Origin: Paenibacillus marchantiae
Lineage (GTDB): Bacteria > Bacillota > Bacilli > Paenibacillales > Paenibacillaceae
DNA: 64,000 nucleotides
Direction of reading: 5' to 3'
Assembly (NCBI RefSeq): GCF_028771845.1
Contig: NZ_CP118270.1
Coordinates: forward strand, 2,480,001-2,544,000
Each line of letters begins with the position of its first letter. Position 1 is the stretch's first letter. The notes under the pieces were generated by a model that saw only the letters and a program-made list of their open reading frames with translations, had not been told where the DNA came from and ran no database searches. Shown one piece after another: positions 5,499-42,381 of this stretch. The position numbers and the translations under genes are program-made.

Positions 5499-5511
5499 CG
5501 AACATATGTTC
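5499..5511. promoter_or_regulatory. LexA/DinR (SOS) operator
   Basis: CGAACATATGTTC matches the Bacillus LexA/DinR consensus CGAACATATGTTCG in 13 of 14 positions; the last base is C instead of G. It lies about 70 bases ahead of the start of the gene at 5584-6288, the usual position for an SOS operator. Confidence 0.75.
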
Positions 5512-12996: not shown

Positions 12997-13008
12997 GAAC
13001 GTATGTTC
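12997..13008. promoter_or_regulatory. LexA/DinR-like palindrome
   Basis: GAACGTATGTTC fits the GAAC-N4-GTTC core of the Bacillus LexA operator. It lies about 170 bases upstream of the nucleotidase start and 10 bases beyond the end of the ImmA-type gene. No convincing promoter overlaps it, so its role is uncertain. Confidence 0.4.
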
Positions 13009-13017: not shown

Positions 13018-13425
13018 CTAAAAAAAATGCTGCACTTCACGTGGCAGTCCAGTACGCAAACAAAATTTCTCCAGTGATTCATCCGGCTCTGGCATCACCC
13101 CTGAAGTTAGAAGCTGTATGGCAAAACGATTGGCCTGTCTTTCCAGCTTGCCTGGGGCAAAATAGGAGTGTTCCTCCAGAAAGAACCGGTTTATGCCTTT
13201 GTGCAATCGGTCATGTCCAAGTTCATGGGCACACACAAAACGCTGCCATTCCGGCGGTAAATCATTGTGAATGACGATAAATCTGCGACGGAGCTTTCGG
13301 AAATACAGTCCTTTGGTGGACTTGCCCAGATTGGTGAACCGGATCTGTATTCCAATGGCTCTGGCAATGCTGAAAGGGCAGTTTGTCCGGTGTTTTCGAA
13401 TCAGCTTTGTTACAATGTCATCCAT
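13018..13425 (-). CDS. ImmA/IrrE-type metallopeptidase (XkdA-like)
   Basis: 135 residues with the zinc motif HELGH (His67, Glu68, His71) and a downstream Glu95 in LERQANRFA as third ligand, the standard IrrE N-terminal fold. In ICEBs1 the ImmA protease cleaves the neighbouring ImmR repressor after DNA damage; PBSX has a similar xre-xkdA pair. Here the gene lies 42 bases after an XRE repressor gene on the same strand, the same order, so cleavage of that repressor is the natural inference. Confidence 0.85.
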   Translation of the reverse strand: MDDIVTKLIRKHRTNCPFSIARAIGIQIRFTNLGKSTKGLYFRKLRRRFIVIHNDLPPEWQRFVCAHELGHDRLHKGINRFFLEEHSYFAPGKLERQANRFAIQLLTSGVMPEPDESLEKFCLRTGLPREVQHFF

Positions 13426-13467
13426 ATCATCTCACCTGCTGCTTTAGTTTGTTCAGCTTGAAATGCT

Positions 13468-13914
13468 TCATGGGCGCTTGTCCGGATCGTTCGTTTTTTT
13501 TCGTTTGTTCATCTGTTTGGCTTCCCAGAACAGACCTGTCAGGACATCCTTAATTCGTTTCTTATCCTCATCATCCAGCGGGATGCCGTCAAACATCAGA
13601 TCATCCTCGTCCTCGAGCATCTTTTTAAAGTCCCGACGGTCCTTATAAGTTGCCCATTCTGGAGCGTCATGGAGCTCACTTGCTGTATTTCCGGTTTCCA
13701 GATAGTCGGCCTGTTTCATCATATCCGCGTAGGGAACCGAGAGTGCGTCCGAGATTTTGCGGATGGTAGCAGGCTTGGGAACTCCGCGAACCCCATTCTC
13801 AATGCGTGAAATTTGCGAGTTGCTGATTCCTGCTGCTTCGGCGAGCTGATTGATACTGTATCCCTGTTGCTCGCGCAGTTGTTTCAGATAAGGACCAAAA
13901 GCGTGCTCCACCAT
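13468..13914 (-). CDS. XRE-family repressor, partner of the ImmA-type protease
   Basis: 148 residues. A helix-turn-helix of the Cro/C1 type fills residues 7-62 (YLKQLREQQGYSINQLAEAA, ISNSQISRIENG). A charged C-terminal half follows (KKMLEDEDDLMFDGIPLDDEDKKRIKDVL), ending in a lysine-rich tail. AAAGGAG lies eight bases before the ATG. It heads a two-gene unit with the ImmA-type gene and is preceded, in the same orientation, by one copy of the multi-hairpin repeat. By analogy with PBSX Xre it may repress the distant tail operon; there is no direct proof. Confidence 0.8.
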   Translation of the reverse strand: MVEHAFGPYLKQLREQQGYSINQLAEAAGISNSQISRIENGVRGVPKPATIRKISDALSVPYADMMKQADYLETGNTASELHDAPEWATYKDRRDFKKMLEDEDDLMFDGIPLDDEDKKRIKDVLTGLFWEAKQMNKRKKTNDPDKRP

Positions 13915-13993
13915 TCATTCCACTCCTTTGATTCGTACAAGTGCTTGAATTATAAAGAAGCTAGTTGGATGAGGGAGATAGATGTGCGTTCTA

Positions 13994-14127
13994 TGCCCGT
14001 TCCGGATTCGGATCGTTCTTTTGATCGCTGTTATCCCCGGATTTCCTATTTCACTTTCTAAAGGGAGAAATCCGGGGATAAAGGCGAACGCTTCGCTTCT
14101 TCAGAATCGATTCCGTCTCCTTCACTG
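13994..14127 (-). repeat. multi-hairpin repeat family 1, copy 1
   Basis: Read on the minus strand: GAATCGATTCTGAAGAAGCG, a GCGAA/TTCGC hairpin, then the long stem TTATCCCCGGATTT / AAATCCGGGGATAA, then GATC/GATC, then a degenerate form of the CCGTAACCGGAACGG end hairpin. It is 80 bases upstream of the XRE gene and in its orientation. Near-identical modules occur at 21582, 53593 and 56005. Copy 1 lacks the 40-base AAGCTTTCTG module seen in copies 2 and 4. Confidence 0.85.
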
Positions 14128-14706
14128 CGTATGCGCGTGACCATACTTCTAGCCCATCGTCCAAAACGGAGTAGCTTCTTTATAAAAGTCAAATGACTTA
14201 TACGAGGATCTTTAATTATCTGTACTATATCGTATATATACCATTAGGTAAAGGGATATGAAACAATTATGCCAAAAGGTAAAGAAAACGAGAGCGCGGG
14301 TTTTATTTTATAGTTAAAACGACCCAAAATGAAGGTTTACGCCGATCCCCAGAAAGTGGTATCCTCAAATAGAAATACGAACAAAATACGAACAAAATGT
14401 AAAGTTGAGACAAGTTGGATGATGAGGAAAATGAATTATTCCTGCTTCATACCTGACTTTAACTGATTCCAAAAGGCAACAGAAAAAACTTAGAAAAATG
14501 CCGTTACTATTTGAGAGAACTGGATAACTCTAATAAAAGGAGTATTTTGTATTAATCCCAAAAGCGATTCAAATTAGCAATAGGTAGATAGAAAAGCTTC
14601 TATTCGTCTAACTATTGTACCCGTAAGCGACTGGAACCGAATAATACAAAATACCAAAGATGAGATGAATGCGAGTTTAACTGACCCTTTAAGGAGGAGA
14701 ATGAAT
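14128..14706. other. gene-free stretch ahead of the ArpU-type gene
   Basis: AT-rich, without a credible coding frame. It holds an 11-base direct repeat (AAATACGAACA twice, at about 14373 and 14384) that may be a protein-binding site for the divergent or downstream genes. No operator of known type is recognised. Confidence 0.4.
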
Positions 14707-15189
14707 ATGGAACTGATGCTGCCCGAATTGGACCGACGCAAAACACAGACTGCTGTTGAAGCCGCGCTGGAAAAATACCGGATTTATAAAACGATTGCTT
14801 TTGAAGAACGAGAGGTGATGGTGACGGCGAGTTACGCTGAGCGTTTCCATGGTGCAACGAATGTGACCGGGGATTCCACTGCCAGAACGGCAATCTATAA
14901 TGTGGATGTACAGCGCGCACGTCAGGCGTACTGCGATACGATTGATTTTGTGGTATCTCGACTGAGCGAGAAGGAACGTGTACTTGTCAGCGAACGTTAT
15001 CTGAAGGATGACGATGTATTTGACTATAAAGTGTATAACCATGTGTTTGACCCGCCTGTCAGCAAGGATACGTATACGAAGATTCGGACACGTGCTTTCT
15101 ATAAAATGGCGCTGGCTCTGTCGGATCGGGGTCTGATTAATATGGAGCCTTTATCTGCATCTCGCAAAGAGCGACAGAAGCTGGGCTAG
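14707..15189 (+). CDS. ArpU-family phage-type late transcription regulator (Xpf-like)
   Basis: 160 residues. The pattern LEKYRIYKTIAF near the start, VSRLSEKERVLVSERYL in the middle and a C-terminal sigma-region-4-like helix pair (SKDTYTKIRTRAFYKMALAL) are those of the ArpU family, which activate phage late genes. The start is the ATG at 14707, not 14701, because AAGGAGGAG at 14691-14699 almost touches the earlier codon. It has no phage neighbours downstream: the next genes are chromosomal. The tail operons 9 kb further on are an obvious possible target (inference). Confidence 0.8.
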   Translation: MELMLPELDRRKTQTAVEAALEKYRIYKTIAFEEREVMVTASYAERFHGATNVTGDSTARTAIYNVDVQRARQAYCDTIDFVVSRLSEKERVLVSERYLKDDDVFDYKVYNHVFDPPVSKDTYTKIRTRAFYKMALALSDRGLINMEPLSASRKERQKLG

Positions 15190-15284
15190 AGGTGAAGCAA
15201 GAAGTTCATCCTTTTATATCCTTCGCTGATTGTATACAATAATTGAAAACAATATTAAGGATCAGTCAAAGGAGAGGAATCCGC

Positions 15285-16955
15285 ATGACGGAACAAGCCG
15301 GAATGCAGGAGATGTACACACTGAAGACGATCGCGGAAACGCTCAACACATCCAACGACCTGAATCTGATGCTGGATACGGTACTCGGCAAACTGTTGGA
15401 ACTGACGGGATTGACTACGGGCTGGGTATTCCTGATCAATAATCAGGGAGAGTACTCCTGTATTGCTGATTACAGTTTGCCTCCTGCTCTGCTGCATCAT
15501 GACAAGGAGCCGATGCGCTGTGGGTCTTGCTGGTGCGTGAATCGCTTCCGGGACGGGAGATTGGATAATGCCGTCAATATTATTAATTGCAAACGCCTGG
15601 AGGATGCCGTCGATCATCAATGGGGAGATACCCATGACATCACCCATCATGCAACGGTTCCGCTCCGCTCGGGGGAAAAGATGCTGGGACTGCTGAATGT
15701 TGCTGCACCCGGGAAAGAGCATTTCAGTGATAGTGAGCTGGCGCTTTTGCAGGCTGTAGCTTATCAGATAGGTAGTGCAATGGAGCGGATGCGATTATAT
15801 AGCGCAGAGCAAAGGCGAGCGGATCTGTATGTCAGGCTGGGGGAGTTCAGCCGATCGCTGGGCGTGACGGTCAACGATTGCAGCAGTGGAGACGATATGG
15901 CCAAGATGGTTGTAAAGCTGCTTGGGCATCATTACGATTGGCCTTTTGCCGCACTGTTATCCCAGAAAAACGGAAGTTTTATGGTACAGGCGGCTTATGC
16001 TCATGGCAGGTCCGAAATGATGACAATATCTGGACTCTCTCCAGAGTTGCAGACTCGCATGCATCGTGTGATTGATTCTCATCGGGCTATGGTATTGTCG
16101 GCAACGGAAATCCAAGATGTTTCTGCCATCTGCAATACCGGGCTCCCTAAGTCTGTTTTGGCTTCGGGCTTGGCTGCTCCCATCCCATTAAGTTCTCCTG
16201 GCGAAACGGCAGTACTGGTGGTTGGATTGGGCTCGGCCAATGGCTTCCTTCAGGCAGATCGTGAGGTTTTCGATGCACTCGCTGAACATATTACAGCCTC
16301 GTGGGAGAGTCTGAGACTGGTATACAAACGGCGGGAATTGACCCGACTGGAGGAACGAAACCGTTTGGCTCGTGATTTGCATGATTCGGTGAACCAAATT
16401 TTGTTCTCCCTGTCTCTCACAGCCAAAGGGGCAGAGAGCATGTTAGCCGGATCACTACAGCTGCATCCGGCTGCGGATGCGATGAAGGATATACGTTCCT
16501 TGTCGCAGGAAGCATTGAAGGAAATGCGTGCCTTGATTATGCAGCTTCGTCCGGCGGGTTTGGAGTCTGGTCTGCTCAGTGCATTGCAGGAATATGGTAC
16601 AGGACAGGGATTGCAGGTCGTTGTACATCGGACGGGTATGCGCTCCTTGCCTCAAAGTATTGAGGAAGGCTTATGGCGTATTGGACAGGAAGCACTCAAT
16701 AATGTGCGTAAACATGCGGGAGTCCCTTCCGCTGAGATATCCCTCCAGCTAAGCGATCAGGAAGCGATATTAATCGTTACAGATCGAGGAAAAGGGGGGG
16801 CTAAAAAGCGTGAGGCTTTGCCTGCCAGTTCACTTGGTCTGTCCATCATGAGGGAACGGGCCCAGTCACTGGGCGGCAGACTTGAACTTGTGAGTTCATC
16901 CCGTAAGGGAACATCGGTAACGGTCGTCATTCCACTTCCGTCCGAATCTGTATAA
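15285..16955 (+). CDS. GAF-domain sensor histidine kinase (NarL-system type)
   Basis: 556 residues, no transmembrane segment, so a cytoplasmic sensor. Two GAF-like domains (about 25-175 and 190-350) precede the HisKA_3 dimerisation helix with phospho-acceptor His366 (LARDLHDSVNQ) and a HATPase domain (EALNNVRKHAG, DRGKGG, LGLSIMRERA). The first GAF contains CGSCWCVNRF and a nearby NCK, cysteines that could bind a metal or sense redox (inference). AAAGGAGAGG precedes the ATG at 15285. It is co-transcribed with the response regulator 18 bases downstream. Confidence 0.88.
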   Translation: MTEQAGMQEMYTLKTIAETLNTSNDLNLMLDTVLGKLLELTGLTTGWVFLINNQGEYSCIADYSLPPALLHHDKEPMRCGSCWCVNRFRDGRLDNAVNIINCKRLEDAVDHQWGDTHDITHHATVPLRSGEKMLGLLNVAAPGKEHFSDSELALLQAVAYQIGSAMERMRLYSAEQRRADLYVRLGEFSRSLGVTVNDCSSGDDMAKMVVKLLGHHYDWPFAALLSQKNGSFMVQAAYAHGRSEMMTISGLSPELQTRMHRVIDSHRAMVLSATEIQDVSAICNTGLPKSVLASGLAAPIPLSSPGETAVLVVGLGSANGFLQADREVFDALAEHITASWESLRLVYKRRELTRLEERNRLARDLHDSVNQILFSLSLTAKGAESMLAGSLQLHPAADAMKDIRSLSQEALKEMRALIMQLRPAGLESGLLSALQEYGTGQGLQVVVHRTGMRSLPQSIEEGLWRIGQEALNNVRKHAGVPSAEISLQLSDQEAILIVTDRGKGGAKKREALPASSLGLSIMRERAQSLGGRLELVSSSRKGTSVTVVIPLPSESV

Positions 16956-16973
16956 AATCAGGGGGAAGAAGAC

Positions 16974-17696
16974 ATGCCGATTACGATTTTACTCGCGGAC
17001 GATCATGCAATGGTGAGGCGTGGGTTACACGTTTTTTTGTCCACTCAGCCAGATATGGAAGTCGTCGGAGAAGCCTCGAATGGACAGGAAGCACTGGAAC
17101 AAGCAGAACAACTGCATCCGGATGTGGTATTAATGGATCTGCATATGCCCGTGCTTGACGGGATCGAGACGGCGAGAAGGCTTCGTGCGATCTTGCCTGG
17201 AATCCGTATCATCGTACTTACGTCCTTTTCCGATCAGGATCATGTCGTACCGGCCGTACGCGCAGGAGTGAAGGGATATCTGCTAAAAGATATTGAGCCA
17301 GAGGATCTTGCCGTTGCCATTCGTAATGTGCATGCAGGTCAGGTAGAGCTTCATCCTGCAGCAGCAGGACAATTAATGCATGTGATGGCATCGTCTGAAC
17401 TGTCGATGAATGAAGCGCATGAGCGTGCAAATCCCCATTCGTCTACTCGGCTTCCAGAGCAAGAGCGGATAGGGCTGGGAAAAGAAACTTCTCATAGACC
17501 GGACATGCTTACTCGCCGGGAACGAGAGGTTCTGGGGCTGATTGCACAAGGATTGAGTAATAAAGAGATCGCCATAAAGTTAATCATTACCGAGAAAACA
17601 GTGAAAACCCACGTCAGTCATCTTTTAGACAAATTGGGACTGGCAGACCGGACACAAGCAGCGCTTCATGCCGTAAGAAATGGTTGGGTCGTCTGA
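16974..17696 (+). CDS. NarL/FixJ-family response regulator
   Basis: 240 residues. The receiver domain has the acidic pair DD (9-10), phospho-acceptor Asp55 (VLMDLHMP), Thr in VLTSF and the conserved Lys in GYLLKD. A polar linker of about 50 residues (140-180), longer than usual, leads to the LuxR-type helix-turn-helix (LTRREREVLGLIAQGLSNKE). GGGGGAAG precedes the ATG. It is the partner of the preceding kinase and ends at an intrinsic terminator. Targets unknown. Confidence 0.92.
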   Translation: MPITILLADDHAMVRRGLHVFLSTQPDMEVVGEASNGQEALEQAEQLHPDVVLMDLHMPVLDGIETARRLRAILPGIRIIVLTSFSDQDHVVPAVRAGVKGYLLKDIEPEDLAVAIRNVHAGQVELHPAAAGQLMHVMASSELSMNEAHERANPHSSTRLPEQERIGLGKETSHRPDMLTRREREVLGLIAQGLSNKEIAIKLIITEKTVKTHVSHLLDKLGLADRTQAALHAVRNGWVV

Positions 17697-17730
17697 TCCA
17701 TCTTCCCATATTCTCAGACTAAAGTTGTAG

Positions 17731-17758
17731 AAACTCAACCCAAAGGTTGAGTTTTTTT
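17731..17758 (+). terminator. intrinsic terminator
   Basis: The stem AAACTCAACC / GGTTGAGTTT with a four-base loop and a run of seven T ends the two-component operon. Confidence 0.9.
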
Positions 17759-17878
17759 GTGCTGCAAGTTAAGTCTATCTGCCGACGATTCCGAGGTAGA
17801 AGCAAGGTAAGATGAGAGTAGAGAAAGTTGAATCGAAGAGAAAGAATGTTTTTATAAAATCGAAGGAGAGTGACATAG

Positions 17879-18454
17879 ATGAATATTATCATTTTGGCAG
17901 GCAGTAATCGGAAAAATGCAACCAGTACACGTTTAGGGGAATATGCAGTGGAGGTAATCAGCGGTCAGGGGCATGAAGCCAGCTTGTTCGATTTATATCA
18001 GACACCGCTCCCATTCTACGCACCGGATGAAAAACAGAATGAAGATCAGAATCTGTCTGACCTGAACACACGTATGCTCGCCGCAGATGCCATTATTCTG
18101 TCTACGCCAGAGTATCATGGCAGCATCAGCGGTGTACTCAAAAATGCATTGGATCACCTGAGTCAGGCTCATTTCAGTGGTAAACCGGTATTGTCCATCA
18201 GCTCAGCAGGAGGTGCGGTAGGCGTAAGCTCGCTTTTGCAGCTGCAGGTGATTATTCGCAATTTGCACGGTATTAACGCGCAGGAGTGGATTTCCATTGG
18301 TGGTGCACAGCGCAGAAGATTTGAAGCAACGTTTGACGGATACGAAGAATTTGAAGGCAGTCAGGACATTGAGGATCGGATCAAACGCGTGATTGGTTCA
18401 TTTTTACACCTTGCCGAGACGTTAACTGCAGTACGGAAGCCGTCCGTGAGTTAA
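17879..18454 (+). CDS. NADPH-dependent FMN reductase
   Basis: 191 residues with a flavodoxin-like fold. The phosphate-binding loop is AGSNRKNATSTRLGEY near the N terminus, and the flavin-contacting motif STPEYHGSISGVLKNALDHL lies near residues 79-98, both diagnostic of the FMN_red family (azoreductase/chromate reductase relatives). AAGGAG precedes the ATG. It is the first gene of a three-gene unit with two VOC proteins, suggesting a small-molecule detoxification or redox role (inference). Confidence 0.87.
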   Translation: MNIIILAGSNRKNATSTRLGEYAVEVISGQGHEASLFDLYQTPLPFYAPDEKQNEDQNLSDLNTRMLAADAIILSTPEYHGSISGVLKNALDHLSQAHFSGKPVLSISSAGGAVGVSSLLQLQVIIRNLHGINAQEWISIGGAQRRRFEATFDGYEEFEGSQDIEDRIKRVIGSFLHLAETLTAVRKPSVS

Positions 18455-18472
18455 GAGAAAGAGGTTTTCATC

Positions 18473-18943
18473 ATGATTAAAGGCATATTTGAGACTCATC
18501 TGAACGTAACGGATCTGGAGAGATCCCATCATTTTTATGAACAGATTGTTGGATTGCAGCATGCTTATGGGCAGAAGGAACGTGGAAACTCCTTTTACTG
18601 GATTGGCGGTGTAGGCAACGCGATGCTCGGACTGTGGCAAAAGGACCCTTCCGAGGTGCAGCGACAGCATTTTGCTTTTCAGGTATCGTTGGAGGACATG
18701 AAGCAAGCTGTCACTTACCTAGAGGATGAAGGGATCAAGACGCATAACTTTCAGGATGATGATATTGGCGAGTTATATGTATTTGGATGGATGCCGGCTG
18801 TGTCCGTGTATTTTACCGATCCGGATGGTCATTCTCTGGAATTCATATCGATGCTCCCGGATGAAGCGAAGCCGGAACTTGGCATGGTGCCTTGGAGTGA
18901 GTGGGAGAAGATGAACGGTCGGGTGAAGGAGGACACAGCATGA
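18473..18943 (+). CDS. VOC-superfamily protein (glyoxalase/bleomycin-resistance type)
   Basis: 156 residues built from two beta-alpha-beta-beta-beta modules. Candidate metal ligands fall at the family positions: His9 (ETHLNV), His66 (RQHFAF) and Glu123 (DPDGHSLEFI). It starts 18 bases after the flavin-reductase gene and overlaps the next VOC gene by four bases. Substrate unknown; FosB-like thiol transferase or dioxygenase activity cannot be told apart here. Confidence 0.8.
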   Translation: MIKGIFETHLNVTDLERSHHFYEQIVGLQHAYGQKERGNSFYWIGGVGNAMLGLWQKDPSEVQRQHFAFQVSLEDMKQAVTYLEDEGIKTHNFQDDDIGELYVFGWMPAVSVYFTDPDGHSLEFISMLPDEAKPELGMVPWSEWEKMNGRVKEDTA

Positions 18944-19575
18944 TTTTTGAAGAGGTCAAATTATATACAGCACGATTGGAAGACATTAAGCACTTTTATA
19001 TCAACACACTGGGTTTGAACATGGCTGAAGAGTCCGAGCATGCCTTCACGCTACAGATTGGTTTAACGAAAATGATATTCATGCGAAGTGAAACAGACCA
19101 GAATCCGTTTTACCACCTGGCCTGGATGATTCCAACCAATCGTTTTCAGGAGGCCAAGGCATGGGCAGCGGCACGTGTCCGTCTAAGTAGGCATGAAGGT
19201 GATGATGAGACCTATTCAACGAATTGGAACTCGAATTCGCTCTATTTCGAAGATCCTGTCGGTAACATTCTGGAGCTGATTGCTCATCATACCGTTCATA
19301 ACGAGAGTGATCACGCCTTTTCGGAGAAAGATCTACTGCAGGTGTGTGAGGTGGGACTTGTCACGGAAGATGTGCTTTCTGCGGTAGATGAACTTGAGCA
19401 GATGGGATTGAAACGATGGAGAGCGATAAGTGATACCTTTGCCCCTATAGGGGATGTGAACGGTCTGTTCATTGTGGTGAAGAAGGAGCGAACCTGGTTC
19501 TTTTCGGAGCAAAAAGCAAACATCTATCCGCTGGAAGTGTCCATACGTGATGTTGGGAGACTTCGAATCGGCTAA
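18940..19575 (+). CDS. VOC-superfamily protein, two-domain
   Basis: 211 residues. The first ~125 residues form a VOC domain (VKLYTARLEDIKHFYINTLG, then FEDPVGNILELIAHH). A second, shorter half (LLQVCEVGLVTEDVLSAVDELEQMG) looks like another VOC module lacking a full ligand set. The ATG at 18940 overlaps the preceding stop (ATGA) and is preceded by GAAGGAGG. Translationally coupled to the upstream VOC gene; function unknown. Confidence 0.72.
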   Translation: MIFEEVKLYTARLEDIKHFYINTLGLNMAEESEHAFTLQIGLTKMIFMRSETDQNPFYHLAWMIPTNRFQEAKAWAAARVRLSRHEGDDETYSTNWNSNSLYFEDPVGNILELIAHHTVHNESDHAFSEKDLLQVCEVGLVTEDVLSAVDELEQMGLKRWRAISDTFAPIGDVNGLFIVVKKERTWFFSEQKANIYPLEVSIRDVGRLRIG

Positions 19576-19719
19576 AATGCGCGGAACAGCAGGCAAAACG
19601 GTCATATGTGCACCATTTGAATCATCTTATAGAAGTAAACGCTTTAAAAAGAGTGTTTTGCTAAAAAACTGTTGCTGGTCGTGTGTATATCAGGATTCGC
19701 ATCGATGAAGGGTGGTGGC

Positions 19720-20673
19720 ATGTTGGATCGACGTTTGTTGGAAGAAGGGCTGGCTGTTATTGTGTCCAGTCGGGAGCGTACAGGAGATTTGTGGCATGCC
19801 CATTATGGGGCGGGAGCTATTGCGGCTTATTTTTGGTTGCGGGAAAATCGCCTCACTGCCCTTGCGGCGGGCAGTGTTACGGCTGAAGCGAAAGCCATGC
19901 TTCGCCAGCACGGGTTGAATGATGGCTTGAACTCCCGGAAGGGAGAGGTTTTGCCAAGGGAAGAGGCCGAAGCGCGTATTACAGCAGCGCTGGATCGAAC
20001 CATCGGAGAGCTACACTGGGTGGGTCATCAGGCCATCTATGGTGCCCTAAGTCTAAAAGCCATTCGTGAACTGGATGGTTGGGGCACGGAGCATGACATG
20101 GATCAGATGGTTGAACTTATTGATTCTTTTGAACGAACCATTCCAGGTAGATCCTGGGTAAACACAACGGTGAAAGAAATTCGCAGCTTGAAGTTAAGTG
20201 AGGCAGACGGATTCCCTGATATAGAACGCCCGGAACAATTGTCCCGGCTGATTCTGGATGAGCTTGGTGCATTTCGTACCATCTATCAGGCAGAAGCACA
20301 TCATGATCTGATCGGCCACATGCTAACCTACGGGCACGCGCTTAATATATTATTTGAACTGGATTACCCTGCTTTGTTCCATAAAGGCGTTCCACCTTTT
20401 CTCAGGATGGTCAAGGCGCTGCGATTGAGCCGGGATGTGGATGCCGACCAGGAGATGCCAACACTGCAATCTCCAGTTGATCGTCTGCCATTGATCCGTG
20501 CAGAACGCTCTGTTGCACTTCCACATGAACTGGAGTACTGGCTCACCGACAGACGTTCCCGCGATTGGCATGGAGGTCATCTGTTCAAATTTCCATTCAG
20601 CTTCTACCATCATGCCAGAAACGGAAATTCAGTTCCGGAAAGCTGGGAAAACTTCCGCTATATTATCGCGTGA
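19720..20673 (+). CDS. conserved-looking protein of unknown function
   Basis: 317 residues, mostly helical, with several histidines in clusters: HAHYGAGA near the start, HWVGHQAIYGALSLKAI in the first half, and AEAHHDLIGHMLTYGHA in the second. The spacing suggests a metal- or cofactor-binding helical bundle, but I do not recognise the family and no catalytic motif is certain. The start at 19720 follows GAAGGGTGG; earlier in-frame starts lack a ribosome site. It stands alone, with a terminator hairpin after it at 20692-20720. Confidence 0.6.
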   Translation: MLDRRLLEEGLAVIVSSRERTGDLWHAHYGAGAIAAYFWLRENRLTALAAGSVTAEAKAMLRQHGLNDGLNSRKGEVLPREEAEARITAALDRTIGELHWVGHQAIYGALSLKAIRELDGWGTEHDMDQMVELIDSFERTIPGRSWVNTTVKEIRSLKLSEADGFPDIERPEQLSRLILDELGAFRTIYQAEAHHDLIGHMLTYGHALNILFELDYPALFHKGVPPFLRMVKALRLSRDVDADQEMPTLQSPVDRLPLIRAERSVALPHELEYWLTDRRSRDWHGGHLFKFPFSFYHHARNGNSVPESWENFRYIIA

Positions 20674-21211: not shown

Positions 21212-21400
21212 GGTCGTATCCATCCTTTATCGTAAATAAGGTTTGAAAGGCTACTTATTATCATATAAACAGCATCAGGAATGGATTTGTTGGGTTATCC
21301 GGCAAAAGTCTCTGCAAGAAACCGACGTTTAACCGCCATGATTGCGACAACAAATAGACGTAATCCATACGGACAACCGTCAGCGCGACCGATTTAAACA

Positions 21401-21502
21401 TGTAAGATTATATTATCGGATCAGTAGCAAATGACATATCCCGATAAGCACATACGCTAATGTACATGCCGGCCAGGGGCCGGTTTTTTGATGCGGTGAT
21501 TG
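21401..21502 (+). repeat. terminator-bearing repeat family 2, copy A
   Basis: It starts TGTAAGATT, then TATTATCGGATCA-TAGCAA, then GCACATACGCTAATGTACA (an ACAT/ATGT hairpin), and ends in a CCGGCC / GGCCGG stem followed by six T and TGCGGTGA. TTATCGG and CCGATAA can pair around the variable middle. The same order occurs at 23720-23821. The final hairpin has the form of an intrinsic terminator on the plus strand, so the unit may be a small RNA or an attenuator. Confidence 0.75.
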
Positions 21503-21581
21503 CACACTTGCTCTGATCGGGTACTAAAGAAAGACTGAATATATCATTATAAGTTGAATTTAATTTTTACACCAAAACGGA

Positions 21582-21730
21582 GAGTGCAGAACCAATCTGA
21601 AGAAGCGAAGTTAAAAGCTTTCTGCAAGAAAGCTACTTCGTAAGCATACTCTGGCCTTTATCCCCGGATTTTACCCTTGAACTAAGGGATCAAGAAAATC
21701 TGGGGATAAGAGCGATCGGAAGATGGTACT
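21582..21730 (+). repeat. multi-hairpin repeat family 1, copy 2
   Basis: It has CTGAAGAAGCGAAG, the optional module AAGCTTTCTGCAAGAAAGCT...TAAGCATA, then the main stem TTATCCCCGGATTTT / AAAATCTGGGGATAA with an inner CCCTT/AAGGG-like loop, then AGCGATCGGAAGA. The right end is degenerate and lacks the CCGGAACGGC terminus. It is 63 bases upstream of the DUF4127 gene and in its orientation. Confidence 0.8.
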
Positions 21731-21792
21731 GCAATCGCAGTGACAAGGTGTAACATCTCTAGTTCAACTTATCTAACAGGAGGTTTTAGGAT

Positions 21793-23613
21793 ATGAAAAC
21801 AGTATTGTATGTTCCACTGGATGATCGTCCAGCGAATCTGGATGACGTCGTTGTACAAGGAAAAGCAGCCGGTATCCATATCATTACACCGCACCTGGGT
21901 GACATTCAAAATCGTCTGGATTCCGAGAAAACGGTAGAAGGCACCACATTGCTTGGAACGTCTACACCTACGTATGGGAAACCGTCCAATATTCATAATT
22001 TCATTTTGAAAAATGCGGCTAAAGTGGATGGCTTCATCATCTCTTCGGATATGCTGGCTTATGGTGGTCTGATCGGCAGTCGTCAGCTTCGTGAAGATGG
22101 AGGCGGAACATATCCTGATTACGATCAGGACACCACCCGTTTGCTCGATGTGATCAAAACCATTAAAGAGAAATATCCATGTAAACCGGTGTTTGTGATG
22201 GATACCATTATGCGACTCGCCACCACCTCATTTGCAGATGGTCTCGCATTGGATGCCTACAACGAGTCACGTGCACTGATGCAGCAGCCACGCCGGTCCT
22301 TTACGGCATTCGAGGATATTGTGAACGGGTACAACCTTTCTCCAGAGTCTACGGAATATGGGGAAACGACGTATTTTAATAAAGAACAGTACTACAACGC
22401 CAGACAACATAAATTCAAAACGAATCTGTACATTCTGGATAAGCTTGCTCGCAAAGGATATATCGACTTCCTCGCCGTAGGCGTCGACGATGCGAATACG
22501 CAAGGCGTTCAGATTAATGAGATCAATTATGTGGAAGCACGAATCAATGAATGGCTCGGTGGGACGGATGGACAAAATCCCGAACGGGCGATTATCCTTC
22601 CAGATGCGGATGGCCTGGGTCACGCGCTGGTGGCACGTATGGCTAACCAACTGCTTCGTGGTGGGAAGAAGACGCGTTATGAAGTGAAATATTTTGGCCC
22701 GCATGGTTCCACGATTATCAATGCCTATGAATATATGAATGTGCACGAGAATGTGGTGCGTCATGTGGATATTGTTGGTGGTGTGGTTGTAACGGATACA
22801 ACTCCCGATGTGGAAAATGGAAATGAATTAACGAATGCTACATCTGTGAATGAAGCTTCTTCGTTTGATATGGCGTCTGAGTTGGATCGCATGACGAACC
22901 GTCATCCAGGCAAACCGGGTAAAAAACCGGTGAACATTGAGATTGTTGCCATTACGGCGCTGGATCAGGTGCAGGCGGCTGTGGCGCAATTGACGAGTAA
23001 TAGTGAGAAGGGGCTGCCTTCGGTCCTGATTGATTTTGTAGGAAAAGGTCCAGCCAACGTCGATGTAGCCGAAGCACTCCTGAACAGTCCGTATACGGGT
23101 CGGGTTCTGGGTTACAGTGCATGGAATACGCCGGGGAACAAAATCGGTATGGCTGTGGGTATGGGACAATCCCGTTATGCTCTGATTACAACAGAAACCC
23201 ATACCCATGCGTTGCGAGATGCCATGAATGCACAGGGGTCATTGTTGTTCAAACGTTTCCTGAAAGATTACTACTACAAAGCAGTAGCAATTGCAGATAT
23301 CCGTACGTATTCCAGAGCACATGCGCTCTATACCAATGTGGCAACTCTAGCGGATCAGAATATGGTGTTGTTTAACTCAGAAGAAGATTATGCTCATTTG
23401 CAGACTTTACTCAGGGATCTGATGCAGACCCACACCACGGCACTGGCGAACAAAACAGCATTTGCTCAAGGGTACGTAGCGATAAAGCAAATCTGTAATG
23501 GGGAAGCAGCTTATGCGGAGTATTGCAGTGCACTGCTGGATTATGCGAACCCCGATTTCATCTGGGGACGTGCGTTTGAGATCACGTTGAATCCGAAAGT
23601 TACGCTGAAATAG
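21793..23613 (+). CDS. DUF4127 family protein
   Basis: 606 residues. The opening TVLYVPLDDRPANLDDVV, SSDMLAYGGLIGSR and later DVVEALLN-like and GYSAWNTPGNKIGMAVG segments are characteristic of DUF4127, a family common in Paenibacillus and relatives with no proven activity. No signal peptide is visible, so it is probably cytoplasmic. An AACAGGAGG ribosome site lies eight or so bases before the ATG. The gene is flanked by the two copies of repeat family 2, and a copy of family 1 sits in its leader. Confidence 0.85.
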   Translation: MKTVLYVPLDDRPANLDDVVVQGKAAGIHIITPHLGDIQNRLDSEKTVEGTTLLGTSTPTYGKPSNIHNFILKNAAKVDGFIISSDMLAYGGLIGSRQLREDGGGTYPDYDQDTTRLLDVIKTIKEKYPCKPVFVMDTIMRLATTSFADGLALDAYNESRALMQQPRRSFTAFEDIVNGYNLSPESTEYGETTYFNKEQYYNARQHKFKTNLYILDKLARKGYIDFLAVGVDDANTQGVQINEINYVEARINEWLGGTDGQNPERAIILPDADGLGHALVARMANQLLRGGKKTRYEVKYFGPHGSTIINAYEYMNVHENVVRHVDIVGGVVVTDTTPDVENGNELTNATSVNEASSFDMASELDRMTNRHPGKPGKKPVNIEIVAITALDQVQAAVAQLTSNSEKGLPSVLIDFVGKGPANVDVAEALLNSPYTGRVLGYSAWNTPGNKIGMAVGMGQSRYALITTETHTHALRDAMNAQGSLLFKRFLKDYYYKAVAIADIRTYSRAHALYTNVATLADQNMVLFNSEEDYAHLQTLLRDLMQTHTTALANKTAFAQGYVAIKQICNGEAAYAEYCSALLDYANPDFIWGRAFEITLNPKVTLK

Positions 23614-23719
23614 GGTGTTAATGGCATGAGCCACGCTGAGTCGTCTTTTTTCCACCCCAGATGCACCCTTATTCGCACCTAAGTCGTACGAATCACCATC
23701 CGCGCTAGGGATGAAAGGG

Positions 23720-23821
23720 TGTAAGATTGTATTATCGGATCAATAGCAAGGATACACACCGAAAGCACATACGCTAATGTACAGATCGGCCACAAGGGGC
23801 CGGTCTTTTTTGTTGCGGTGA
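23720..23821 (+). repeat. terminator-bearing repeat family 2, copy B
   Basis: Same order as copy A: TGTAAGATTGTATTATCGGATCAATAGCAA is shared with two substitutions, and GCACATACGCTAATGTACA is identical. The closing CGGCC / GGCCGG hairpin is followed by TCTTTTTTG and TTGCGGTGA. The variable middle still allows TCGG / CCGA pairing. It lies about 120 bases ahead of the first gene of tail cassette A, a fitting place for an attenuator of the operon. Confidence 0.75.
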
Positions 23822-23942
23822 ATGGTGTCCAGCTTTGGCGCCGGTAGATACGCAGAGGTTGAACTAAAGGGGGAATTCGCTGCTGCAGCATTGTCGCTGC
23901 ACAATGTGGGCAGATCGCACACTTGCAGCTGAAGGGGGCGAA

Positions 23943-24854
23943 ATGAATGTGTCTATGAGTAGTGGGTTAAACAACACGGCCAACACAGGGCAAGTGAGCA
24001 ATGTCATCAGGCATACGCTGAAGCAGAAGCTGGAGGCTCTTGTTCCGGCATGGAATGGCCGAGTAAAGGACATCCCTGCACCGGGAGAGGTGTTAGCCGG
24101 ACCCTGTGCCGTGATTGCTTTTGCAGAAGAAGTACCGAAGTCTGCTTGGGCGGGGTATAGGAGGATTATCAAAATCTCTTCGTACGCCCCCCCCGAAGAT
24201 GGAGGTGCTGAACAAGTAGAGACTTGGTCAGCAGCGCTGATGGAAGGACTACACCAGGTCAGGCTGGAGGATAAAGAAGGTGGGGCATTTACCTGTATTT
24301 ATCTGGGTTCTTCGGATGGTGATCGTGTGGACGCCAGTTCTGGACTGGTTACGCGCAGCCTACGGTTTGGGGTGTATGTTCCGGAAACGGTGGAATACGC
24401 TCAGGCTGAAACCACAGATTCGTGGATGGATGCACTTCGTGGTTGGACACGAACTCAGCTCGGACAGGAATGGTCCGTATATGGGGATGTGTGGCCTGGA
24501 GGTTATAAGGCCAAGTCCGTACTGTGGCGATTGACGGGATGCAGTACAACCACCGCAGGGACTTCTGCGCTGGAGGTTCGTAAGCAATGGATCGGGCATG
24601 TGCTGGCTGCAAATGTAGCAGATGTCCGTCAAACGGTCACACATCTTGTCGAACAACTGGCTGTGCAGACCCGGATTGCTTTGACGGATACAGACGGTAC
24701 GCGATATGTGACGGTGGACGAAGTTTCAGCCGACTTGCAGGCAGATGCTTACTTGAACGGACAGATTCGTCTAACGTTGCAGCAGCGTATTCGCCGTCCG
24801 GGTACAGAAGCGCCATTGATCCGTGAGATTCACCATAACAAAGGGATAGAGTAA
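23943..24854 (+). CDS. first gene of tail cassette A; probable tail-terminator/neck protein
   Basis: 303 residues. The two halves look like tandem versions of one fold. Residues 1-145 open with IRHTLKQKLEALVPAW and end RSLRFGVYVPE. Residues 150-300 open with WMDALRGWTRTQLG and end GQIRLTLQQRIRRP. This is the strand-helix pattern of small tail-terminator proteins, but doubled. The position ahead of the YqzN/YkzM and sheath genes matches that of xkdI/xkdJ in PBSX and of the 143-residue gene heading cassette B. GGGGGCG precedes the ATG. The identification rests mainly on position. Confidence 0.5.
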   Translation: MNVSMSSGLNNTANTGQVSNVIRHTLKQKLEALVPAWNGRVKDIPAPGEVLAGPCAVIAFAEEVPKSAWAGYRRIIKISSYAPPEDGGAEQVETWSAALMEGLHQVRLEDKEGGAFTCIYLGSSDGDRVDASSGLVTRSLRFGVYVPETVEYAQAETTDSWMDALRGWTRTQLGQEWSVYGDVWPGGYKAKSVLWRLTGCSTTTAGTSALEVRKQWIGHVLAANVADVRQTVTHLVEQLAVQTRIALTDTDGTRYVTVDEVSADLQADAYLNGQIRLTLQQRIRRPGTEAPLIREIHHNKGIE

Positions 24855-24922
24855 GCGTTAATCGAGAGGAACTGTTGATGGGGTTCCAGATGAGAAAGTC
24901 GATATCATACTTTAGCTTCAAA

Positions 24923-24980
24923 TTCATAGGATCATAGGGACAATGTTCGTAGGTTCATAGGGACAAAAATTCATAGGTCA
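24923..24980 (+). repeat. short tandem direct repeat
   Basis: Three units of about 23 bases: TTCATAGGATCATAGGGACAA, TTCGTAGGTTCATAGGGACAA, and a shortened TTCATAGGTC. It lies between the first and second genes of cassette A. It is not coding; role unknown. Confidence 0.7.
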
Positions 24981-25042
24981 AAATTATGGTGCAAAAATCA
25001 GGTTCAACGAATTCAGTAGTCAAACAATGAGGTGAGATGGTC

Positions 25043-25243
25043 ATGGCAAGCTCAGTGAAAAAAAATAAACAGGCTGCCCCGCAATACACGCGGGCCGAGC
25101 TGATGAATCATGCCGAAGCCCTCTTTGCCGTTAAGGTAGAGGTGCTGTATGGTGCGCTGTACGAAGCAGCGCAAGAGACGTTTTCCATTGAGGAAGCGAA
25201 GGAACGCATCAACCAATTTATGAAAGCGAAGGTGAAGGGATAA
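25043..25243 (+). CDS. YqzN/YkzM-like small tail protein, cassette A
   Basis: 66 residues. A lysine-rich start leads to YTRAELMNHAEALFAVKVEVLYGAL and FSIEEAKERINQFMKAKVKG, a helical pattern typical of the YqzN/YkzM proteins that sit just before the sheath gene in PBSX and skin. The start at 25043 is chosen over 25037, which touches the AGGTGAG ribosome site. Its stop overlaps the sheath ATG (TAATG). The precise role in assembly is not known. Confidence 0.75.
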   Translation: MASSVKKNKQAAPQYTRAELMNHAEALFAVKVEVLYGALYEAAQETFSIEEAKERINQFMKAKVKG

Positions 25244-26706
25244 TGGCAGGCGGAACTTGGGAGCAAACGAATCGTCCGGTACTTCCGGGCTTATATATGA
25301 ATTTTCAGGCGGCGGCGTCTTCGGCCATTCAGGCTGGTAATCGCGGAACGGTTGTTGTGCCGATCAAGGCCAACTGGGGTCCGGTGGGCACTTTTGTAGA
25401 AGTCGGCAGTGAAACTGCAATTGAGCGTGTTTTCTCGGCGCATGCCCTGGATAACGGGACGGCCTATACATCCTTGAAGCTCGCTCTGCTAGGAGGACCG
25501 AAAAAGCTGCTCGCTTATCGGGTAGCCGGAGAATCGGCGAAAGCAGCTACGCTTACGCTGAAAGACAGCAGTGATGCAGCCGTTCTGCAACTGGACGCCA
25601 AGTATCCGGGTGACCGAGGTAACGGGTTCTATGTCACCATTCAACCGGGTGTAATTGATAATACGAAGCATGAAGTGCGCTTGTTTGAAGGCAACCGTAT
25701 GCTGTATGCACTGCTGACTGCGGATATTTCGGCAGCGTCGCTGGCGAAAGAGATCAACGCGGATGAAAGCAACATTTGGATTAACGCGCAGGCGATTGGC
25801 GAGGGTACAGGTGTTGTTGCAACCGTTGCGGGAGCGGCGTTCAAAGGTGGTGCAAGTGGCAACGATGGACTGACCAATGCGGAGTATATCGCCGTGCAGG
25901 GCGCGCTGGAAGGTGAGCAATTTGACGTTTTGGCACTGGATCATGCGGCGGATGCACCTTTGCTGGCGAGCTTTGCAGCTTGGGTGAAACGTGTGCGCAA
26001 TGAGGGTAAACCCGTGATGGCTGTATTCGGTGGTACTACGGCAGACGATACCTCTGCGACTGCAGCACAGAAGGCGGCGGCACGTTCACTCACATTGAAT
26101 CATGAGGGTGTAATCAATGTTGGTACGGGTGTGCGCTTGGGAGATGCATTCTACAGCTCGGCGGAAACGTCTGCTTATGTCGCGGGTCTGATCGCAGGAC
26201 AACGTCTGAATGAATCCACCACATACGCACCTTCTCCGTTCGATGACGTGACGCGTCGCTGGACTCGTGCAGAACAGGAGCAGGCGGTACAGAATGGCGT
26301 ATTTATTTTCTTCCATGATGGACGTCAGGTGAAGGCGCTTCGCGGAGTGAATACACTCGTGACCCCTGCTGCAGGACAGAATAATGCCTGGAAAAAAATC
26401 CGTTCCATTCGTGTGATGGATGCAATTAATACGGATTTGCAGCGCTCTGCTGAAGATACGTATATCGGTAAAGTAAACAATACGGAAGAAGGACGTCAGG
26501 CGCTGATCGGTGCGATGAAAGCCTATCTGGCGCTGCTCGCACAGAGCAATGTCATTGAAGCTGAGGGATACGATGTCGTTCTTGACCCGGCGTATTATGG
26601 TGCTGCACCCATTCTCAAGCCGGAGGCGGATCAGGTATTCCTGCAATGGAATGTGAAGCTGACGGATGTAATGGAGCAGTTGTTTGGAACGTTTTACGTG
26701 CAATAA
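25243..26706 (+). CDS. contractile tail sheath protein, cassette A (XkdK-like)
   Basis: 487 residues. The start AGGTWEQTNRPVLPGLYMNF, the central GDRGNGFYVTIQ, and the C-terminal VMDAINTDLQRSAEDTYIGK and NTEEGRQALIGAMKAYL are sheath hallmarks: the C-terminal domain that locks onto neighbours and the inner strand-exchange arms. A sheath is the defining part of a contractile (myovirus-like) tail. It is translationally coupled to the preceding gene by a 1-base overlap (TAATG). It is about 50 residues longer than the sheath of cassette B (438), with which it shares its order of motifs. Confidence 0.95.
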   Translation: MAGGTWEQTNRPVLPGLYMNFQAAASSAIQAGNRGTVVVPIKANWGPVGTFVEVGSETAIERVFSAHALDNGTAYTSLKLALLGGPKKLLAYRVAGESAKAATLTLKDSSDAAVLQLDAKYPGDRGNGFYVTIQPGVIDNTKHEVRLFEGNRMLYALLTADISAASLAKEINADESNIWINAQAIGEGTGVVATVAGAAFKGGASGNDGLTNAEYIAVQGALEGEQFDVLALDHAADAPLLASFAAWVKRVRNEGKPVMAVFGGTTADDTSATAAQKAAARSLTLNHEGVINVGTGVRLGDAFYSSAETSAYVAGLIAGQRLNESTTYAPSPFDDVTRRWTRAEQEQAVQNGVFIFFHDGRQVKALRGVNTLVTPAAGQNNAWKKIRSIRVMDAINTDLQRSAEDTYIGKVNNTEEGRQALIGAMKAYLALLAQSNVIEAEGYDVVLDPAYYGAAPILKPEADQVFLQWNVKLTDVMEQLFGTFYVQ

Positions 26707-26799
26707 GGTTTGTGTAGAAGAGAATGGGTTTTAAAAGAAACTACTGTTCGTTGAACGGATGGTATATACGATATTTTCTAATTTCAAGGAGGAATTGTC

Positions 26800-27207
26800 A
26801 TGTTGGATGCGTCAAGAGTCATTCTCGGTACCCATGGTCAGCTGCATATCGATGGTGTGTGGCAGACGAATATTAATAAGCTGGAGGCCAGCGTTGAAAT
26901 TGAGAAGCGTGAGCTGAATCTGGTCGGCAACGATTGGAAAGTACACAAAAATGGTGCGAAAAAAGGAACAGGTACCATGACAGGCTATAAAGTCACTTCG
27001 GACATGATCCAGCGCGGTTTTACCAAGTTCCAAATTATCTCCAAGCTGAACGATCCAGAGTCTTACGGACATGAAAGTGTCTTATTGAAGGGTTGCATGG
27101 TGGACAAAATCCAGCTTGCCAATTGGACAGCGGGCGAGGAAGTGCCGGAGGAAACAAGTTTTACATTTGAAGGATTTGAATTGTTGAACCCGATTGTAGC
27201 GAATTAA
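26800..27207 (+). CDS. tail tube protein, cassette A (XkdM-like)
   Basis: 135 residues. The pattern INKLEASVEIEKRELNLVGNDWKVHKNGAKKGTGTMTGYKVT, split around a beta-sandwich core, and the C-terminal PEETSFTFEGFELLNP are those of the XkdM/DUF2001 inner tube subunit, which stacks as hexamer rings inside the sheath. AAGGAGGAATT precedes the ATG. A hairpin (CCGAGAA / TTCTCGG, about 27304-27320) lies in the 179-base gap after the gene, perhaps protecting a high-level sheath/tube message. Confidence 0.92.
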   Translation: MLDASRVILGTHGQLHIDGVWQTNINKLEASVEIEKRELNLVGNDWKVHKNGAKKGTGTMTGYKVTSDMIQRGFTKFQIISKLNDPESYGHESVLLKGCMVDKIQLANWTAGEEVPEETSFTFEGFELLNPIVAN

Positions 27208-27386
27208 AATGGAATGACTTCAAACTTCGGAAAGGCCTCGTAAGCTACTTGTCTAATCAGGCGCCGGGCAACGAGACTTAACAGAAGTGGGATACACAGG
27301 CAGGCCGAGAAATTCTCGGTCTCTTTGTTGTCCCTGAATATGGAGATATTTTAACCAATTGTGAAATGAGAAGGAGATCGCACCCC

Positions 27387-27821
27387 ATGAGTATGAATGA
27401 AAATATGTCCGAAGAACAAATTTTGGATCAGTTGTTTGAAGCAGCAGAACGTTTGCCGGAAGAGAATGTACGCATTCAACGTTTGGATCTGTTGTTAACC
27501 TTGCGTGGATTGACATCCTCCAAAGTGGATCAGATCCGAGAACGCTGTACGATTCGCAAAACGGTCAAAGGCCGCACCGAGGAAAAGGTGGATACCGAAA
27601 CGTTTAACGCGCTGCTGATCTCTGAAGCAACGGTGAAAATGAATGTTCGCGGCCTTGAATTGTCCGGTTGGGGAGATAACCGTATTACTGGACGCATGAA
27701 ACTGTCCGGTGGGGAACAAGCGGTTCGCCGCATGCTGCTCGCGGGTGAACTGGATGCCGTAGGCGATAAGGTACTTGAGCTGTCCGGCTTCGGTGTGGAG
27801 ATTGAAGACCTAAAAAACTGA
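27387..27821 (+). CDS. tail assembly chaperone, zero-frame product, cassette A (XkdN-like)
   Basis: 144 residues from the ATG at 27387 (AAGGAGAT at 27371-27378). The acidic N-terminal helix (SEEQILDQLFEAAERLPEEN) and the C-terminal AVRRMLLAGELDAVGDKVLELSG fit the small chaperones that load tube and tape-measure proteins. Immediately before the stop is A AAA AAC (27812-27818), a canonical -1 slippery heptamer in the correct phase, opening a 48-codon extension. Confidence 0.82.
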   Translation: MSMNENMSEEQILDQLFEAAERLPEENVRIQRLDLLLTLRGLTSSKVDQIRERCTIRKTVKGRTEEKVDTETFNALLISEATVKMNVRGLELSGWGDNRITGRMKLSGGEQAVRRMLLAGELDAVGDKVLELSGFGVEIEDLKN

Positions 27822-27964
27822 TTCACTCCGGCGGGATGACCACGTTTCTGTACCACATGTGGGTTCGTCATCATCTACGGCCCGGAGAATTCTGGTCTTT
27901 GCCACGCGGGGAGCGCTCGCTGTTGATTGCTTTCTCCGAAGAGGAAATGGCAGCGATCACCTAG
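27812..27964 (+). CDS. -1 frameshift extension of the tail assembly chaperone, cassette A
   Basis: After a -1 slip on A AAA AAC the ribosome reads KKLIHSGGMTTFLYHMWVRH and continues through LPRGERSLLIAFSEEEMAAIT to the TAG at 27962-27964. The product resembles the T part of G/GT chaperones. The frame has no start of its own and lies exactly between the chaperone and tape-measure genes, the classical position. A CCAC/GTGG hairpin may be drawn downstream of the slip site. Confidence 0.75.
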   Translation, partial: KKLIHSGGMTTFLYHMWVRHHLRPGEFWSLPRGERSLLIAFSEEEMAAIT

Positions 27965-28004
27965 CAAATGAATCGATAACTAGATTGGACAGGGGGTGAA
28001 AGAA

Positions 28005-29816: not shown

Positions 29817-29834
29817 GCAGAAAGGAGGCCTGTC

Positions 29835-32334: not shown

Positions 32335-32338
32335 CGGG

Positions 32339-33478: not shown

Positions 33479-33612
33479 TGTTGGGCAGATGGTGGATGAG
33501 GAAGTAATTGGGGAGTGCGGAGACCAAGGAAGATTGGGAGAACGCCGATCCGGATTGAAGTTGGTGAGCGAGACGCTCCATGATGATGTGCAAGGAAGGG
33601 AGGGGACAGGGC

Positions 33613-35827: not shown

Positions 35828-35848
35828 CAACCAAATGAGGGGATATCC

Positions 35849-37401: not shown

Positions 37402-37402
37402 G

Positions 37403-38644: not shown

Positions 38645-38666
38645 AAGGGAAAGGAGGGAGAAATGA

Positions 38667-41351: not shown

Positions 41352-41364
41352 AAGGAGAGGGAAT

Positions 41365-42375: not shown

Positions 42376-42381
42376 CGATAA

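Follow-up and report, generated by a model that had tools for sequence, protein, structure and literature searches.

Can a phage-type regulatory module control tail genes from which it is separated by 8 kb of other genes? The question is raised by a 64,000-nucleotide stretch of Paenibacillus marchantiae DNA (assembly GCF_028771845.1, contig NZ_CP118270.1, positions 2,480,001 to 2,544,000 of the forward strand), referred to here as the window, in which genes for an XRE-type repressor, an ImmA-type protease and an ArpU-type activator (xre, immA and arpU) precede two phage-tail cassettes. The initial annotation had proposed that these three genes are a PBSX-like module regulating both cassettes. 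Having compared the locus with its relatives, we consider it quite probable that a domesticated, tailocin-like phage-tail locus has its lysogeny-type switch in this module, with an XRE/ImmA/ArpU circuit driving two leaders, one before the tail operon and one before a DUF4127 gene. We found no description of this Paenibacillus locus among the titles and abstract openings listed by literature searches.

The genome hosting the window is a single contig of 7.0 Mb. The host is judged to belong to the Paenibacillus pabuli/amylolyticus group by named relatives with near-identical ArpU, such as P. xylanivorans and P. taichungensis (99-100% identity). A minus-strand run of proS, a 5'-nucleotidase-like gene, immA and xre is followed by a 786-bp gap and then by arpU, after which come a kinase-regulator block, the DUF4127 gene, the two tail cassettes, a holin gene, a GH25 lysin gene and a gene for a DppA-like binding protein. 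Curated models confirm the three switch genes where the initial annotation had placed them:

13018 to 13425, minus strand: immA-type M78 metalloprotease (Peptidase_M78 PF06114, 65.3 bits, cut-off 22; PHROG 87, metallo-protease)
13468 to 13914, minus strand: XRE/Cro-CI-type repressor (HTH_3 PF01381, 62.4 bits)
14701 or 14707 to 15189, plus strand: ArpU-family late activator (TIGR01637 phage_arpU, 76.1 bits, cut-off 43.1; PHROG 248, transcriptional activator)

The open frame of arpU extends back to 14665, and both the alignment and an AAGGAGG sequence favour a start at 14701 or 14707. As had been noted, xre precedes immA in the ImmR-ImmA order, arpU is divergent, and no phage structural gene adjoins the three. 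The two minus-strand genes lie 42 bp apart, and in the HELGH motif of the protease the residues H67, E68 and H71 (HExxH) are invariant among 14 aligned sequences including that of the window, as expected of an ImmR/ImmA-type pair.

Evidence for the circuit comes from the association of its parts across the genus, for which 75 genomes were searched. An arpU of this type (E 1e-60 or better) is present in 66 of them, and in 65 of these the start of a sheath gene follows 2.0-13.0 kb downstream within the same contig; in the 66th (G032) the locus is broken by a contig end. These distances, taken between match starts with weak (E > ~1e-22) and unlinked sheath matches excluded and motif strand not considered, are bimodal, 18 genomes falling at 2.0-5.3 kb and the other 47 at 9.0-13.0 kb. 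Matches to xre at E 1e-15 or better occur in 70/75 genomes. The nine genomes without this arpU (G009, G014, G023, G030, G031, G038, G044, G047 and G065) carry no copy of the leader motif described below. A module without tail genes, or the reverse, is therefore not the common case, and control of the tail genes by the module is well supported by this pattern of co-occurrence.

What lies between switch and tails differs between clades, as gene maps drawn for 50 loci reveal; among the 18 genomes with arpU near the sheath gene, 8 were mapped gene by gene (L075-L081 and L084). In the window, the genes following the switch are:

15243 to 20673, plus strand: inserted block (histidine kinase, response regulator, FMN reductase, two glyoxalase-type proteins, 333-aa protein)
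21793 to 23613, plus strand: DUF4127 protein, putative member of the regulon (PF13552, 226.6 bits)
23943 to 35348, plus strand: tail cassette 1 (PHROG 2146 protein, sheath, tube, XkdN, tape measure, LysM, XkdQ, baseplate, fibre)
35396 to 46364, plus strand: tail cassette 2 (tail terminator, sheath, tube, XkdN, tape measure, baseplate, fibre)
46942 to 48516, plus strand: lysis pair, holin and GH25 lysin

The stretch from the kinase-regulator pair to DUF4127 forms the 8-kb block that separates arpU from the tails in the window clade. The kinase and regulator genes directly follow arpU in all 27 loci of that clade and in none of the 21 other mapped arpU loci, and the PHROG 2146 tail gene is seen beyond the block in 22/27, the other five stretches ending earlier or not showing it. 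The block is absent from 14 loci of other Paenibacillus (P. lautus, P. glucanolyticus, P. solani, P. pini, P. chibensis, strain EZ-K15 and 8 genus genomes), where this tail gene starts 0.4-2.9 kb after arpU. The genes at 15.2-23.6 kb had been described as chromosomal and either inserted or retained; because the block is absent from these 14 loci and present in 27/27 of the window clade, insertion fits better. Nor are the intervening genes all ordinary host genes, since a further copy of the promoter and leader stands in front of DUF4127. The block need not interrupt the circuit, because ArpU can act in trans. One could instead suppose that module and tails are neighbours by history only and that the tail operon answers to the two-component pair, which does stand directly after arpU in the window clade; we find this hardly credible, since the pair is absent from the 14 loci of the other Paenibacillus clade and from 3 Saccharibacillus loci that have module, leader motif and tail.

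In Saccharibacillus, tail genes lie within the stretch in 3/7 loci. In Saccharibacillus sacchari (L069:10013-15468) we observe arpU, leader motif and holin gene with, by eye, an ECF-sigma gene pair and an amidase gene, and no tail genes between. Insertion between arpU and leader probably occurred more than once, and repeated insertions at this place fit a diffusible activator.

The link between the switch and the distant tail genes would be a promoter-like unit that is common to the clades and lies upstream of the first tail gene. The window has two copies of it:

21402 to 21419, plus strand: leader promoter-like core, copy 1 (GTAAGATTATATTATCGG), before DUF4127, one of 2 exact copies in the genome
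23721 to 23738, plus strand: leader promoter-like core, copy 2 (GTAAGATTGTATTATCGG), before the tail operon, the other exact copy

These are the only occurrences of the core GTAAGATTRTATYATCGG in the window (chance expectation 0.13, allowing up to 3 mismatches), and the 7-Mb genome has no further exact copy and two sites with 2 mismatches elsewhere. A slightly looser form of the core is found at 86 places in 62/75 genomes of the genus (reversed control 0/75), and 85 of these places lie between arpU and the sheath gene, the remaining one being on a separate contig. Across the family the core occurs in 43/245 genomes and 3/19 genera (reversed control 2/245), a count that for the other genera reflects motif presence alone, without the loci being opened. 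Among the sequences in IMG/VR, at least 120 stretches carry the core; 15 of them, without tail genes or without a leader, look like chance and were left out of the leader counts (L102, L104, L107, L123, L124, L133, L137, L142, L173, L177, L181, L186, L188, L189 and L210). Between L139 and L167 this judgement used sequence, that of L142 itself and the leader sequences of the others. A blastn search of the INPHARED phages with the leader region returned only 20-25-base chance matches. The scan of the window finds no leader motif before cassette 2; the proposed control over both cassettes is modified in that a single leader motif would serve the two. We propose a regulon consisting of the tail operon, the lysis genes and DUF4127.

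We read the core as a putative activator-dependent promoter in which TAAGAT would be the -10 element and transcription would begin near ATCGG. It has no recognisable -35, and a consensus scan lists no promoter at either copy. Upstream of the leader, CCGTC/CGTCC repeats number 112 against 26 expected in 84 non-redundant regions, and in relatives they are most frequent at positions -25 and -36/-37, counted from the G of GTAAGAT. That ArpU is an activator replacing sigma at the -35 position is a fair guess: in its AlphaFold model (pLDDT 75) the top matches in the Protein Data Bank (PDB) are sigma factors, mostly region 4, at non-significant scores. Searched against PDB sequences, the ArpU profile matched none below E 0.68.

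The copy before DUF4127 suggests how that gene may have come under the same control. In 19 genomes (10 with arpU near the tail and 9 without arpU), matches to DUF4127 reach 25-27% identity at most, with none in 2 of them. These genomes apparently hold no close orthologue, and DUF4127 appears to have joined the regulon by way of a copied leader.

Downstream of each core the transcript is predicted to fold:

21415 to 21522, plus strand: predicted structured leader RNA, copy 1 (fold -37.1 kcal/mol, z -2.29; terminator-like hairpin at 21468-21484, alone z -2.31)
23734 to 23845, plus strand: predicted structured leader RNA, copy 2 (fold -39.2 kcal/mol, z -2.42; terminator-like hairpin at 23783-23806, alone -15.9 kcal/mol, z -4.54)

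From ATCGG on, a long-range helix is predicted that starts at the presumed first nucleotide and draws its 3' arm from sequence past a GC hairpin and T-run. By the criterion that we applied, hairpin and T-run are present in 141/165 leaders, and 94 of 101 distinct leaders have them at 67-75 nt, with stem sequences that vary between clades. Because the helix arms vary in length and the 3' side aligns poorly, we assessed the helix by swapping arms without an alignment and by anchoring the register. For 101 distinct pairs, cognate arms have a mean energy of -28.4 kcal/mol, arms swapped between sequence types -19.2 and shuffled arms -14.5. With the register fixed on the outer four pairs, at least 7/10 inner pairs form in 56/135 cognate combinations versus 313/4050 swaps, and position by position the outer helix contains two-sided changes from A-T to C-G, from A-T to T-A and from G-C to C-G. 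This leader RNA, as predicted, is the novel part of the locus and matches no catalogued family: Rfam 15 (4227 models) returned 0 matches at gathering threshold over the window and 0 up to E 10 over 21350-24000. In four leaders (L053:18354, L114, L144 and L149) the sequence is broken after CATACGCTA by a recurring sequence, of about 150 bases in L053.

Since the arms stand on both sides of the hairpin, the helix is possible only in read-through RNA, and tail expression may therefore need passage through the terminator. A fuller version, which we regard as possible and still rather doubtful, is that the leader is a late-operon attenuator at which ArpU, or a factor that it loads, gives read-through, that the helix formed only upon read-through keeps the tail mRNA productive, and that DUF4127 became an accessory of the tailocin when it received a single copy of the unit. 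A simpler account, to which we give somewhat less than an even chance, makes ArpU a plain promoter activator and the hairpin non-regulatory, with the helix protecting the 5' end of the long mRNA or folding the leader away. The helix does begin at the presumed first nucleotide and close downstream of the hairpin; L113 retains a long helix although it is, with L119, L168, L202 and L207, one of the leaders without hairpin plus T-run; and Ltr-type activators are described, in the part of the source used here, as acting via upstream repeats and a -10 (PMC13123087). Against this account stands the retention of the hairpin at a nearly constant distance, with stems differing between clades. An mRNA-stabilising role of the helix is at least as likely as terminator passage. 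We think it very unlikely that the hairpin is instead the terminator of the upstream gene, with the conserved motif a part of that terminator region and unconnected with arpU. In the window one unit directly follows DUF4127, where a terminator would be ordinary, but elsewhere the unit follows arpU, DUF4127 or other genes depending on the clade, the helix is built from stretches on either side of the hairpin, and beyond the two exact copies of the motif the genome has none.

How the switch itself might be set is suggested by the gap between xre and arpU, surveyed in 38 loci:

14224 to 14252, minus strand: candidate xre promoter, TTTACC-17-TATAGT, from a consensus scan, with its -35 within O1
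14238 to 14251, no strand assigned: operator-like site O1, ATACCATTAGGTAA, fitting WTRCCN4GGYAW, a putative repressor-binding site
14269 to 14282, no strand assigned: operator-like site O2, ATGCCAAAAGGTAA, fitting WTRCCN4GGYAW, 31 bp from O1
14336 to 14365, plus strand: candidate arpU promoter, TTTAC-N-TGGTATCCT, the pattern being present in 34/38 loci including 7/7 Saccharibacillus
14377 to 14394, plus strand: conserved direct repeat ACGAACAAAATACGAACA, directly 3' of the candidate arpU promoter, in 35/38 loci
14467 to 14479, plus strand: third operator-like site, TTCCAAAAGGCAA, between promoter and arpU, with similar sites by eye in relatives

The pattern WTRCCN4GGYAW, which was composed after inspection of the gaps, occurs 61 times in 18.8 kb of xre-arpU gaps (3.25/kb) and 5 times in the remaining 794 kb of the same loci (0.01/kb). 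At least two sites are present in 30/38 loci, and L061 has one. The consensus scan that lists the xre promoter yields fewer sites than its shuffles. The part of the gap at 13915-14220 carries a MITE-like hairpin repeat, for which at least 43 genome matches to the gap are listed, its own included (40 of 106 candidates scored); by eye, a relative of this repeat lies at about 21590-21760 before DUF4127, and another near the leader of L050.

A possible link to DNA damage is found at the other end of the switch, where the 3' end of immA is followed by a match to the Bacillus-type LexA site, GAACN4GTTC:

12997 to 13008, no strand assigned: LexA/SOS-type box GAACGTATGTTC, exact match, 9 bp beyond the immA stop, putative function

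The box GAACRNRYGTTC, with at most one mismatch, is found 7-10 bp beyond the immA stop in 41/43 loci including the window (34 exact and 7 one-mismatch); the survey left out L077, L078, L079, L081 (minus orientation), L082, L083, L038 and L043 (no immA). The box looks like the left edge of the element, because the sequence to its left differs between clades. A second LexA-type box is seen in other Paenibacillus, in 56/145 distinct regions against 0.5% of shuffles, and stands 69-91 bp before the leader core; it is present in no leader of the window clade. The lexA gene of the genome has a one-mismatch box, GAACGGAGGTTC, 5 nt before TATAAT. Taken together, the fixed position of the immA box amid unrelated left flanks, the second box and the box at lexA could point to a plus-strand antisense transcript running from the immA end through immA-xre into arpU, a noncontiguous operon in which the repressor is silenced while the activator is expressed. 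We consider such an arrangement unlikely, for no -10 is recognisable by eye beside the immA box on either strand, genome-wide counts of the C-prefixed box show no enrichment (4, and 10 in the reversed control), the box is missing in 2/43 loci, and the second one is absent throughout the window clade. Elsewhere, an exact GAACATATGTTC lies at 5500-5511 of the window, overlapping the start of a 260-aa open frame without a Pfam match; a LexA-type box about 3.0-3.2 kb before proS recurs in 19/50 loci.

Assembled into the XRE/ImmA/ArpU circuit that we favour, these elements would act in four steps. XRE would bind the paired operators between xre and arpU, controlling its own gene and silencing arpU. 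Upon DNA damage the ImmA-type protease would remove or cleave XRE, as the ImmA and MpaR precedents suggest, with LexA release at the immA-end box perhaps helping. ArpU, like Ltr, RinA and Alt, would then bind upstream of the promoter lacking a -35 and start transcription at the DUF4127 and tail leaders. Tentatively, the terminator-like hairpin about 70 nt from the leader start, enclosed in the long-range helix, may make tail expression depend on read-through.

Several observations weigh against this circuit. The strict operator pattern is missing in 7/7 Saccharibacillus gaps, and the structural match of ArpU to sigma region 4 falls short of significance (best E 0.087). An exact motif is missing from four genomes that have arpU and tail (G016, G022, G052 and G074), and the tail copy of the window has weak upstream repeats, with one CCATCC-type site. 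The P. larvae phage HB10c2, whose ArpU is 62% identical, shows no motif in 8.7 kb around arpU/terS (the last 5.7 kb and first 3.0 kb of the record), where a relaxed search at up to 4 mismatches gave a single 4-mismatch site, within arpU; because of this phage, the core motif need not be the target of ArpU. As to the leader RNA, 24/165 leaders have no hairpin plus T-run by the criterion used above, some carry repeat insertions (L050 and L053), cognate arms are better than every swap in only 57/101 cases, and RNAalifold on a MAFFT alignment of 50 leaders gave only 8 pairs and did not recover the helix. There are also exceptions to the co-occurrence of module and tail: in G014 an xre-immA pair stands by a lysin gene without arpU and tail, more distant pairs without arpU are present in G009, G030 and G065, and 8 genomes (G007, G008, G045, G046, G050, G067, G068 and G069) have an extra, unlinked sheath gene of 48-59% identity.

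The locus in G014 (L082, G014:C48:55000-72000) has kept proS, immA, xre and the lysin gene, and arpU and the tail cassettes are gone; it reads as a natural deletion of the element. A different contig of the same genome contains an ArpU-like match of 29% and a sheath-like match of 28%, as would be expected of a prophage.

Among 26 proteins of 23943-48516 scanned with PHROGs, portal, terminase and capsid are never the best hit, and the family "head and packaging, virion structural" is a lower hit of two baseplate proteins. In L113, L119, L168, L191 and L202 a cassette-2-type tail directly follows arpU and the leader, so that the second cassette of the window is also found by itself in other loci.

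Of the systems worked out so far, the switch of the Listeria monocin is the nearest. Monocin is a non-contractile tail element; unlike it, the present locus has sheathed tails, two cassettes and 8 kb of other genes between switch and tails. As here, a repressor and a DUF955 protease (cI-like and mpaR) are encoded one way and divergent genes (lmaD, lmaC) the other way, in a phage-derived element with lysis genes, and the metalloprotease MpaR promotes cleavage of the repressors; a leader RNA is not mentioned for monocin in the part of that account used here (PMC6872733). By analogy, we infer that the present locus works like the monocin switch combined with Ltr-controlled late operons. Ltr, RinA and Alt are likewise small activators encoded upstream of their promoter. 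Direct repeats precede the -10 of those promoters, and in the part of the study used here they are placed at -76 to -32 for Alt and at -107 to -42 for Ltr of phi13 (PMC13123087). The CCGTC/CGTCC repeats of the relatives follow this layout, and those of the window itself are weak. In position, arpU is encoded upstream of the putative late promoter at 85/86 places. The promoters of Ltr, RinA and Alt adjoin the activator gene and drive packaging and structural genes, whereas the targets of ArpU would be genes for tail, lysis and DUF4127 proteins that lie as far as 8.5 kb from arpU, behind a structured leader.

In PBSX, which has the XkdA protease and the gene order Xre-XkdA-Xpf, genes lie between the divergent repressor and activator. 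The proposed PBSX equivalence thus stands as to the module of repressor, protease and activator, and does not extend to the arrangement, since here no genes lie inside the divergent pair and the activator belongs to the ArpU family. Induction there is by DNA damage, and the positive factor is sigma-like, Xpf being so called in the part of the source used here (PMC4243946). Head and packaging genes downstream, as in PBSX, were not found as best hits among the 26 scanned proteins. ICEBs1 has the ImmR repressor followed by the ImmA protease in one operon; the same repressor-protease order stands here beside a tail locus and not in a conjugative element. In lambda, the late promoter pR', controlled by Q, is closely followed by the terminator tR' before the late operon. 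The order of promoter, terminator and late operon would be similar here, promoter and terminator both being predicted from sequence, but ArpU is of a different family, and no search for a Q protein was made. To our knowledge, a long-range helix around the hairpin is not a feature of lambda. Compared with the known systems, the locus appears to differ in its two contractile cassettes, the inserted block, DUF4127 with its copied leader, and the leader RNA.

The circuit proposed here concerns a phage-tail locus present in 65/75 genomes of a soil genus. Knowing its switch would allow such particles to be induced and studied, and with the leader RNA, antitermination or attenuation as a means of late control in Gram-positive bacteria could be put to the test.

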